DNA from: Phycisphaerae bacterium
Lineage (GTDB): Bacteria; Planctomycetota; Phycisphaerae; Sedimentisphaerales; Anaerobacaceae
DNA: 64,000 bases
Direction of reading: 5' to 3'
Assembly: GCA_017993835.1 (NCBI GenBank)
Contig: JAGOLX010000002.1
Location: 1-64,000 of the forward strand
Shown: positions 23,476 through 61,340 of the stretch, in pieces
Position numbering within the stretch: position 1 is the first letter of the stretch
Layout: every line of letters starts with the position of its first letter
Program-made: the position numbers and the translations under genes
The notes under the pieces: model-generated
What the model saw: the letters and a program-made list of their open reading frames with translations, nothing else
Databases searched by the model: none
What the model was told of the DNA's origin: nothing

Positions 23476-23937
23476 GCATGACCGTTGTTGCGGCCTCCCA
23501 CGGCGTAACGAGACATGGGCCGGACCCTGTCATTCCTGCACTGCAGTGGCGCAATATCTTGTTTTCTTAGCAAGCATTTTGGTCTGATCCGGTCGTCGCC
23601 TGCCTGGCATCGGGACCGCACCGTATGACCGGGGGCGCTGCCCCCGGGCCCCCGGCATTTTTCGCCTTCCGCCAGCAGCATGATGGGCAGACGTGTCGAG
23701 GGGCGAGTCCGGCGCTCCCGTTGCCCATGCCATTGGCCCAATGCGTCAAATGCCGGGGGTATGGGGGCGGCGCCCCCAAGAGACACGAGCGGACCCAAGA
23801 CCCGATGGTCCTGCGCTTTGGTTGCGGCCGAAGGCCGCTCCAAGAACGCAGGAATCCAGGAACCGCGGGATTGGGCGCAACCTGATGAATGGATTCCCGC
23901 GTTCGCGGGAATGACAATCCAGGGTCTTCGTGAGCCC
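23476..23937. repeat. dispersed repeat copy 1, split by a 308-bp nested insert
   Basis: Left part 23476-23539 and right part 23848-23937 match the sister copy at 26537-26695. In copy 1 the arms ATTCCTGC (23532-23539) and GCAGGAAT (23848-23855) are separated by 308 nt; in copy 2 they are only 5 nt apart. The insert 23540-23847 has its own structure: hairpins at 23631-23645 and 23763-23777, and 12-bp arms 23649-23660/23748-23759. This fills the gene-free space between the HAD gene and the next gene. Confidence 0.75.
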
Positions 23938-23977
23938 CGATGACACATGCGCAAGCACACTCATACGCGCCCGGCGT

Positions 23978-25176: not shown

Positions 25177-25527
25177 ATCCGTTCTCCGGTAGAAGTCCGT
25201 TTCTTCGGCGCGACCCTGAACGTCCGGGTCCGCGCCGAGTCCATCACAGCATAACCTCTATCCCAGGACGACCGCGGAGTCAAGATGCCGGACACGATGA
25301 GGACTGGAGAGGACGCATGACCGTACCTGCGCATGTGCAACAGGGTTCACGAAGACCCTGGATTGTCATTCCCGCCTCCCGTCGTGTCATTCCCGCGAAG
25401 CGCAAGAACGATCACGCACCCGGCTCGAGAGGCGATTGCGTTCTCCGACCGATGGCCTACAATGGCGGTCGCTGTCGCCCTGTGGGGGCGGCTCGTCGTT
25501 TGGCCGGGAATCCGTTAGGGGAAACTC
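25177..25527. other. intergenic region containing an inverted, truncated dispersed repeat (copy 3)
   Basis: No gene in 351 nt. Positions 25347-25375 are an exact 29-nt reverse complement of 23905-23933 at the right end of copy 1. Two ATTCCCGC-type palindromic halves follow. Promoters for both flanking genes must lie here but none is distinct. Confidence 0.65.
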
Positions 25528-51979: not shown

Positions 51980-52040
51980 TTATTGATGTTTGATTGTTGA
52001 TTTCAGACATCGAACGTCAAACGTCTTGGAGATTCGAGTC

Positions 52041-53975
52041 GTGCGTATTGCCTTGGGACAATTCAACGCGACGGTCGGCGACCTGGCCGGCAACGTGGCG
52101 AAGATGAAGAAGATCTGGTCCGACGCCATGGCGTCGGGGGCGGACCTGGTGGCGTTTCCGGAGATGGCGATCTGCGGGTATCCGCCGGAAGACCTGGTGT
52201 ATAAAAAGCAGTTCGTTCGGGACAACCGTACGGCCCTGGAGGAACTGGCAGAAGCCTGCAATCGCGGGACGGTCGTCGTGGGCTTCGTCGAGGAAAAAGG
52301 CCCAGGCGACGTATCGGAAAAAGGCAGATCGGGCCTATATTCTTCAACGAAATCTCTTGGTTCGATTTCGTTGAAGAATGGAAACGACGAGACTCTCGAC
52401 GCACGACCGGGGTTTGAAGGGGAAAAATCGAAGAGGGAGATTTTTCCCCCTCAAAGTAGGCCCGATCTGCCTTTTTCCGATCCGGGAGATGCCTCCGGCC
52501 TGTACAACGCCGCCGCGGTGATCCAGAAGGGTCGGATCGTGCACACGTATCACAAGTGCAGCCTGCCCAACTACAGCGTCTTCGACGAGCAGCGGTACTT
52601 CCAGGCGGGTGACCGGCCGGTCGTCGTGACCGTCCAGGGCCTGCGCGTCGCGGTCACCATCTGCGAGGATCTCTGGCATCCCCAGCGACTGACCGATCTG
52701 CTCCTGGGCGTCGGGCGGATCCACCTGCTGTTGAACATCTCGGCTTCGCCCTTCGACGTGGACAAGCTGGCCCTGAGGAACGAAGTCATCGCGAAGTGCT
52801 CGGACGCCTTCGACTGCGCGGTCGCATACTGCAACCTGATCGGCGGCCAGGACGAGCTGGTCTTCGATGGTCGGAGCACCGTGGTGGACTCGACCGGGCG
52901 AATCGCGGGCCGGGCCAGGGCATTCGACGAGGATCTACTGATCGCGGACGTCCGCGAGGATGCGGATGGGATTCAGGTGGAAGAACAGAAGGTGAGAAGG
53001 TCAGAGGGTGAGAAGGTCGGAGAGTCGGCTGTAAGCAACCGACGTTCGGGAGCCGACCTGACTGTCCGACCTTCTGACCTTCCAAACTTCTCACCTTCTT
53101 CTTCCGAGCCCGCGGACACGGTCAAGGAAGTCTACCAGGCCCTCGTGCTCGGACTGCGCGACTACGTCCTGAAGAACGGCTTCCGCCAGGTGATCCTCGG
53201 GATCAGCGGGGGGATCGATTCCGCGGTGACCGCGGCCATCGCCGCCGAGGCGCTGGGACCGCAGAACGTCCAGTGCGTGACCATGCCGTCGCGGTTCAAC
53301 AGTCCCGAGACGATCGCGGACTCCAAGCTCGTCGCGGACAACCTGGGCTGCCCCCTGCTGGCGATCCCGATCGAGCCGATCCTGGCGCCGTTCCACGCGT
53401 CGCTGAAGGCCGATCCCCGCTGGACGGACCGGGGCATCGCGTACGAGAACCTCCAGGCTCGCATTCGCGGCATGATCCTGATGTCCCTGAGCAACCAGGT
53501 GGGCTCGCTGGTTCTGACCACGGGCAACAAGAGCGAGGTTTCCGTCGGGTACAGCACGCTCTACGGGGATTCCGCGGGCGGTTTCGGCGTCATCAAGGAC
53601 GTGCTCAAGACGATGGTCTACCAACTGGCCGAGTACATCAACAAGCGGGCGGGGCGGGAGGTAATCCCGGTCGCAGTCATCAAGCGGATTCCCAGCGCGG
53701 AGCTTCGTCCGAACCAGAAAGACACGGACTCGCTGCCCGACTATGATCTGTTGGACCGGATCATCACAGGCTATGTGGAAGAGGACAAGTCCGCCCGCGA
53801 GCTGGTGGAATCGGGCCTGCCCGCCGCGACGGTCGAGCGGGTGATCCGAATGATCGACCGCAACGAGTACAAGAGGAGGCAGTCGGCGCCGGGGGTGCGG
53901 ATCACGCCGAAGGCCTTCGGCAAAGACCGCCGCCTGCCCATCACCAACCGTTACGGAAGCACGGGCGTCCGATGA
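52041..53975 (+). CDS. nadE: glutamine-dependent NAD+ synthase with two in-frame palindromic insertions
   Basis: 644 residues from the GTG at 52041 (VRIALGQFNATVGDLAGN), 9 nt after GGAG; the family is usually about 540-560. The glutaminase (nitrilase) domain has Glu in AFPEMAICGYPPEDL, Lys in TYHKCSLPNY and Cys in TICEDLWH. The synthetase domain has ILGISGGIDSAV. Two stretches are foreign: about residues 91-147, coded by the structured element 52313-52481, and about 313-355, coded by the element 52979-53105. Both fall in a loop or linker and leave every catalytic motif intact, so the enzyme is probably functional. Overlaps the next gene by four bases. Confidence 0.92.
   Translation: MRIALGQFNATVGDLAGNVAKMKKIWSDAMASGADLVAFPEMAICGYPPEDLVYKKQFVRDNRTALEELAEACNRGTVVVGFVEEKGPGDVSEKGRSGLYSSTKSLGSISLKNGNDETLDARPGFEGEKSKREIFPPQSRPDLPFSDPGDASGLYNAAAVIQKGRIVHTYHKCSLPNYSVFDEQRYFQAGDRPVVVTVQGLRVAVTICEDLWHPQRLTDLLLGVGRIHLLLNISASPFDVDKLALRNEVIAKCSDAFDCAVAYCNLIGGQDELVFDGRSTVVDSTGRIAGRARAFDEDLLIADVREDADGIQVEEQKVRRSEGEKVGESAVSNRRSGADLTVRPSDLPNFSPSSSEPADTVKEVYQALVLGLRDYVLKNGFRQVILGISGGIDSAVTAAIAAEALGPQNVQCVTMPSRFNSPETIADSKLVADNLGCPLLAIPIEPILAPFHASLKADPRWTDRGIAYENLQARIRGMILMSLSNQVGSLVLTTGNKSEVSVGYSTLYGDSAGGFGVIKDVLKTMVYQLAEYINKRAGREVIPVAVIKRIPSAELRPNQKDTDSLPDYDLLDRIITGYVEEDKSARELVESGLPAATVERVIRMIDRNEYKRRQSAPGVRITPKAFGKDRRLPITNRYGSTGVR
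52313..52481 (+). repeat. palindromic element A1 inserted in frame in nadE
   Basis: 169 nt with perfect 25-bp terminal inverted arms (52313-52337 and 52457-52481). Inside are a perfect 16-bp hairpin (52339-52354/52364-52379) and an 11-bp hairpin (52419-52429/52439-52449). It codes for the extra residues 91-147 of NadE. A related inverted copy is at 60962-61194. Confidence 0.88.
52979..53105 (+). repeat. palindromic element D inserted in frame in nadE linker
   Basis: 127-nt imperfect palindrome made of GAGAAGGTC-type units on the left and their complements GACCTTCTCAC on the right, around AGTCGGCT/AGCCGACC. It codes for residues about 313-355 (QKVRRSEGEKVGESAVSNRR onward), between glutaminase and synthetase domains. 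Confidence 0.75.
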
Positions 53976-60927: not shown

Positions 60928-61021
60928 GCCGACATGGTAACGTCTGTTCTCGCCCGTTGCTCTGAAAAAGGCAGGTCGGGCCTACTGTGAGGGGGAAAAA
61001 TCTCCTGGCTCGGTTCTTCCC

Positions 61022-61067
61022 TGTGGCACCCCCGCCCTCGGGGGTGTTCCGTCCCCAGCCGGGGGCG
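61022..61067 (+). repeat. element B, copy inside A2
   Basis: 46 nt with CACCCCC and GGGGGTG arms. It matches the reverse complement of 62246-62291 at 42 of 46 positions without gaps. Confidence 0.8.
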
Positions 61068-61150
61068 GCTGGGCTACATGGGCCTTCCCCAGCCGGGGGC
61101 GGCTGGGCTACATGGGCCTTCCCCAGCCGAGGGCGGCTGGGCTACGAGCC
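61053..61150 (+). repeat. 34-nt tandem repeat, about 2.9 units
   Basis: Units begin at 61053, 61087 and 61121 with CCCCAGCCGGGGGCGGCTGG (third unit has one change) followed by GCTACATGGGCCTT. Too few units and no separate spacers, so it is not a CRISPR array. Confidence 0.85.
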
Positions 61151-61340
61151 AAGAGATTTCGTTGAAGAATATAGGCCCGACCTGCCTTTTCCGACGATCC
61201 GCAAGGAACGTGGATCTGAGAAAGGGCCGGAATCTGCCGAAGAGCGTTTCCCCGCGTCTGCCGATTCGGCTATGATGGGCTGCGTCGAACGACAGGCGGT
61301 GATTGAGGAACAGGAGAATGGCTCAGAGGGGTGCATTCGT

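Follow-up and report, generated by a model that had tools for sequence, protein, structure and literature searches.

The window analysed here, a stretch of 64,000 nucleotides, carries nadE, the gene of a glutamine-dependent NAD+ synthetase, and within its reading frame a 169-nt palindromic element at 52313-52481. A sequence-only reading had described the element as three-armed, with perfect 25-bp ends enclosing hairpins of 16 and 11 bp. The gene, the parts of the element and the related features are the following.

52041-53975, plus strand: host gene nadE (glutamine-dependent NAD+ synthetase); the ORF 51990-53975 is open through the element
52293-52312, plus strand: left flank, locus-specific, missing from the empty sites of relatives and within the 192-nt net insertion
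52313-52337, plus strand: left terminal arm, 25 nt, fully complementary to 52457-52481
52339-52379, plus strand: hairpin 1, stem 52339-52354 / 52364-52379, 16 bp, perfect, 9-nt loop
52380-52412, plus strand: linker, unpaired, hypervariable across copies
52413-52455, plus strand: hairpin 2, stem 52413-52429 / 52439-52455, 17 pairs with one A.C mismatch, 9-nt loop
52457-52481, plus strand: right terminal arm, 25 nt
52482-52496, plus strand: right flank, locus-specific, missing from the empty sites; its GCCT can pair with AGGC of the left flank
52985-53105, plus strand: second palindromic repeat, E2, unrelated to the first, in-frame between the two nadE domains
60961-61194, minus strand: composite copy, partial, from the family of the 169-nt element; a 34-nt repeat lies in tandem within it at 61049-61150

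The coordinates, the perfect 25-bp arms and the 16-bp hairpin of the earlier description were exact, and the location inside the nadE reading frame was borne out. Its 11-bp hairpin corresponds to the perfect run within hairpin 2, where the A.C mismatch splits the stem into 11 and 5 bp. Folding of the RNA of both strands, which had been proposed as a check, gave strong structures with energies of -94.4 (plus) and -101.1 (minus) kcal/mol (z = -10.8 and -12.8), and none of 200 shuffled sequences folded as well as the element. Similarly, the fold of the element as single-stranded DNA had a z of -12.7.

Both domains of nadE are open and were matched by Pfam despite the element, which adds about 56 amino acids between ...VVVGFVE and GLYNAAAV... 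of the predicted protein; the stretch spanning it includes SEKGRSGLYSSTK. NadE relatives with an empty site read VVVGFVEQGEHGLYNAAAV, and the home genome reads VVVGFVEEKGPGDV-(about 56 aa)-PGDASGLYNAAAV. Compared to the empty relatives, the net insertion amounts to 192 nt (64 codons), the nadE copy having 23 extra flank nucleotides without counterpart in the relatives. In L063, the empty site reads ...gtcgag-CAGGGTGAACAT-ggtctgtac.

The second repeat, E2, is missing from several same-genus nadE orthologues. Six of its long copies in the genome lie in long ORFs (nadE and about five others), all in one frame, and the in-frame copies encode a common peptide, EQKVRRSEGEKVGE...VRPSDLLNFSPS. As E2 also interrupts nadE and other ORFs in-frame, in-frame palindromes characterise this genome and not just a single element. 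A separate observation concerns the nadE orthologue of a related species, genome G003 (871-aa frame), in which a fragment of a Y1 transposase (PF01797; G003:C566:2321-2545) lies in-frame between the NadE domains and occupies the linker region that corresponds to the E2 site of the home genome.

The home genome (6.37 Mb in 115 contigs) holds about 40 diverged copies of the 169-nt element, full or partial, in both orientations and both within and outside genes. Full copies are 72-95% identical to the nadE element, most of them 80-90%, with the nearest at 95%. Copies were also found in six of the eight other genomes of the genus and in none of 32 sampled genomes of other genera; all these genomes are drafts, and the copy counts are non-independent. 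A scan of 84,980 species genomes with a 21-nt core pattern found full elements in Planctomycetota MAGs only, including Phycisphaerales UBA2218 and Planc_01. Two cyanobacterial matches were rejected, the 21 nt lying within unrelated sequence common to both, and the viral contigs scanned with the pattern gave no match. With a covariance model under strict filters, the home genome was the sole match among 198 genomes sampled from the class, a sample that bears on the wider class only, as no copy-bearing genome of the same genus is among the genomes listed for it. Altogether, copies came only from Phycisphaerae-type Planctomycetota, namely the home genome, the six others of its genus and a small number of additional MAGs.

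Several further repeats were noted beside the copies and elsewhere in the window. The repeat inside the minus-strand copy (61049-61150) is a GC-rich 34-nt hairpin repeat, CCCCAGCCGGGGGCGGCTGGGCTAC, which occurs three times in tandem, and a similar sequence flanks the element copy L006. The right flanks of L006, L016, and L020 have a common sequence like GGTCACGAG(TCACGAG)CCA, probably another dispersed repeat. L013 and L029 have an identical right flank, TCCCGGGAGGTTCTATGA, which suggests insertion beside a repeated sequence or local duplication. Furthermore, an inverted repeat pair of 38 nt, 92% complementary and 1.4 kb apart, lies at 23905-23942 and 25338-25375 (GCGGGAATGACAATCCAGGGTCTTCG...). 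Finally, the hairpin 1 loop of L023 and the hairpin 2 loop of L149 carry inserts of 27 and 24 nt that keep the frame and have a common GACGCGCAGCGG-type motif, reverse-complemented in one of them, so that a smaller repeat is nested at the hairpin tips.

Pairing is retained across the diverged copies. Among 26 diverse copies, 97.9% of the cells are paired and 33 of 58 pairs have changed on both sides, which none of 500 shuffles equalled; with the partner slid by one column as a control, pairing fell to 58% or less. Parsimony over 71 copies gives about 135 double Watson-Crick changes, a rough figure since the tree was built from the same data. Uncompensated differences between copies, which the sequence-only reading had named as speaking against a maintained structure, are thus not the prevailing pattern, and the data support a maintained structure. 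Two insertions common to sister species differ at 17 of 232 stem positions and at 23 of 102 positions of linker and loops; their pair changes comprise six compensated and five others, and both insertions have diverged and are still largely paired. The compensated changes in these two orthologous insertions indicate that the fold outlives the insertion. Recent insertion, put forward earlier as one cause of the perfect pairing, is not supported, given this divergence and the 95% identity of the nearest copy.

The level at which pairing is kept can be read from the mismatches. Stems of the 71 copies contain 88 G.T and 92 A.C mismatches. Such a balance suggests that pairing is kept at the level of DNA, as a duplex or as single strands of either sense, and not in one RNA strand. 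A structured functional RNA, regulatory or catalytic, whose fold is selected on the transcript would fit the strong fold on both strands, the covariation and the sense orientation, which is the commoner one among genic copies. However, RNA selection on one strand should favour G.U over A.C, a search of Rfam up to E = 1 returned no match, copies occur in both orientations inside and outside genes, and the hypervariable central linker leaves the family without a conserved unpaired core. We therefore regard a functional RNA as very unlikely. The folded RNA raised in the sequence-only reading is thus not supported; a mobile DNA element is, by empty sites and by the target duplications of a sister subfamily described below.

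Insertion into genes follows one pattern. For each of the 13 sense copies examined, a long ORF continues through the copy without a stop, and the element frame used is always the same; 12 of the copies are 169 nt long (168 nt in the other one). Among the hosts, Pfam identified a 2-hydroxyacid dehydrogenase, GATase_5 (PurQ-type), a PfkB-HAD fusion, [FeFe] hydrogenase, FtsK, GH127, and a radical SAM protein. The genes of a phosphate-binding-type protein and of MTHFR hold copies that are partial or rearranged, and RNase R, URO-D, and endonuclease/phosphatase genes hold copies in antisense. Relatives have empty sites with a readable junction at nadE and nine other genes. The net insertion between filled and empty sites varies from 165 to 231 nt, which leaves the limits of the mobile unit ambiguous and counts against the explanation preferred below. 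Of the three sense frames of the nadE copy, only +1 is free of stops; survival of tolerable insertions therefore suffices to explain the common frame. As this frame is usually stop-free, genes with an insertion in it would simply encode about 56 additional residues, which the host protein would tolerate.

Translational bypass or excision from the RNA could in principle remove the insert and make it silent at the protein level, and some translational bypass elements do feature a stable structure. The genic copies argue otherwise. Sense copies keep an open frame and, in 12 of 13 cases, the length of 169 nt, while lengths of 167, 168 or 170 nt, and stops, are frequent among the other copies. Furthermore, linker changes at the three codon positions lean to the third in genic copies (0.17/0.23/0.30) and show no such lean in the other copies (0.34/0.44/0.33). 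Removal at either step is hardly credible on this evidence; probably, the peptide is translated and stays in place as ballast, with no removal at the RNA or protein stage.

Evidence for mobility comes from a sister subfamily, B, found mainly in the genomes G007, G004, and G002. Its unit ends are CTGGA[GC]...[GC]TCCAG, with the end sequence CTGGA[GC]TT[CT]TGCAAAATGGA, and direct repeats of 7 bp, for instance TTCATAA, TTCTTGA, and TATCTAA, lie on either side of it. At one offset only, 6 or more of the 7 positions agree in 12 of 27 copies, compared to a background of 2.7% for all combinations of left and right flanks, and none of 2000 permutations reached the observed mean. Given these target-site duplications, and the terminal inverted repeats of the short copies scattered through the genomes, the family is probably a MITE-type mobile element. 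The nadE copy is a member of subfamily A, in which direct target duplications were absent at every offset, a point against the explanation preferred below; the integration step of subfamily A may resemble that of subfamily B, to judge from their kinship.

The element would be moved in trans by a putative transposase. A search of four draft genomes for an autonomous partner with subfamily B ends found no inward-facing pair at 0.6-4 kb; the inward-facing pairs that it did find are separated by a few hundred bp at most, and this too counts against the preferred explanation. A Y1 transposase acting in trans, of the type associated with REP sequences, had been suggested by the sequence-only reading. 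Each of the nine genomes of the genus has Y1 genes (PF01797), also G003 and G008, in which the element was not found; there is thus no association, and the Y1 transposase was rejected as partner. Target duplications are not known from Y1 transposases. Like REP/BIME sequences with RAYT (Y1), the family consists of palindromes dispersed in bacterial genomes. The element differs from these short sequences in being much longer, three-armed and intragenic, and its consensus is without a GTAG-type hairpin head. Together with the target duplications of subfamily B and the Y1 genes of G003 and G008, this led us to reject membership in the REP/RAYT group.

The bases just outside the element are specific to each locus and pair within the locus out to about 8-12 nt, a pairing that none of 2000 permutations of the flanks attained. 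One source of such pairing would be insertion into pre-existing palindromic targets, at hairpin tips, so that the paired flanks are old target sequence and not growth. By inspection, the empty sites of L031, L024, and L017 are themselves GC-rich quasi-palindromes, and hairpin loops hold smaller repeats in L023 (27 nt) and L149 (24 nt). On the other hand, the empty relatives of L017 have the left GAC and lack the complementary right GTC(A), and the 23 extra flank nucleotides of nadE are missing from the relatives. As the whole explanation we consider target choice possible, and lean against it.

Template switching, an established source of hairpin homogenisation and compensatory change in the accounts given in PMC8794818 and PMC8604942, has been proposed for the coding palindromes of nematomorph mitochondria (PMC6649704). 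After insertion, the arms would be kept complementary, and sometimes extended into the flanks, by hairpin events, probably polymerase template switching. We favour a mixture in which insertion into quasi-palindromic targets is combined with growth of the palindrome, template switching being the probable maintenance process. Template switching alone should not slow the divergence of stems, yet they diverge less than the linker in the two orthologous insertions, so that some selection or copy-to-copy conversion may contribute.

In a rival explanation, selection for transposition, or for recognition of cruciform or single-stranded DNA by the mobilising enzyme, would keep the pairing in place of a mutational process. 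The symmetric mismatches are also compatible with recognition at the DNA level, and the linker varies more than the stems among paralogues. Against this, locus-specific flanks beyond the family consensus pair as well, which an enzyme recognising the element need not require, and compensated changes continue after insertion in the two insertions inherited by sister species. Enzyme recognition as the main cause therefore appears rather unlikely to us. A bolder version of the preferred mixture holds that these are protein-coding mobile palindromes which actively maintain and lengthen their own stems by template switching, the flank being copied inverted, and thereby retain their fold over long times and add locus-specific codons to host proteins, in several unrelated families of one Planctomycetota lineage; in this strong form we think it doubtful.

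The family has likenesses to several known systems. QMITE2 of Coxiella burnetii and other bacterial MITEs have terminal inverted repeats of 23-29 bp, direct repeats of 7-9 bp, a stable fold and occasional in-frame ORF fusions (PMC10969869, PMC5896051); the element is of their size class and close in plan to their anatomy, with terminal inverted repeats, fold and, in subfamily B, direct repeats. It differs in its frequent in-frame insertion into conserved genes, in variable ends that covary within a copy, and in having a subfamily, A, without direct repeats. The nematomorph mitochondrial palindromes are likewise perfect inverted repeats kept in coding sequence (PMC6649704), but they are not presented there as one dispersed mobile family, whereas the copies found here form a defined family, three-armed in fold and with empty sites in relatives.

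Rickettsia palindromic elements (RPEs) come closest in mode of life. They are described as palindromes of about 150 bp, with several families per genome, located in-frame in unrelated metabolic genes as well as outside genes (PMC10969869), and as losing repeat identity over time (PMC6649704, citing Claverie and Ogata 2003). As in RPEs, the copies found here lie in-frame in unrelated protein-coding genes and have empty orthologues. The likeness drawn here is one of mode of life. The elements described here differ in that their hosts are Planctomycetota and that compensatory change keeps their pairing. We consider it likely that the nadE insert is a non-autonomous palindromic MITE-type DNA element of one Phycisphaerae group, with an RPE-like mode of life and arms maintained by hairpin processes at the DNA level.

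A 2024 review treated in-frame palindrome insertion outside Rickettsia as merely conceivable (PMC10969869). In-frame palindromic elements, so far described mainly as a peculiarity of Rickettsia, are now found in a phylum far from it. Two or more unrelated families are involved, and their pairing persists as the copies diverge. The covariation observed here is strong, yet the mismatch pattern points to DNA, which calls for caution in taking covariation as proof of a functional RNA. One fold at many loci with known empty sites provides a natural test of whether selection or template switching lies behind compensatory change.
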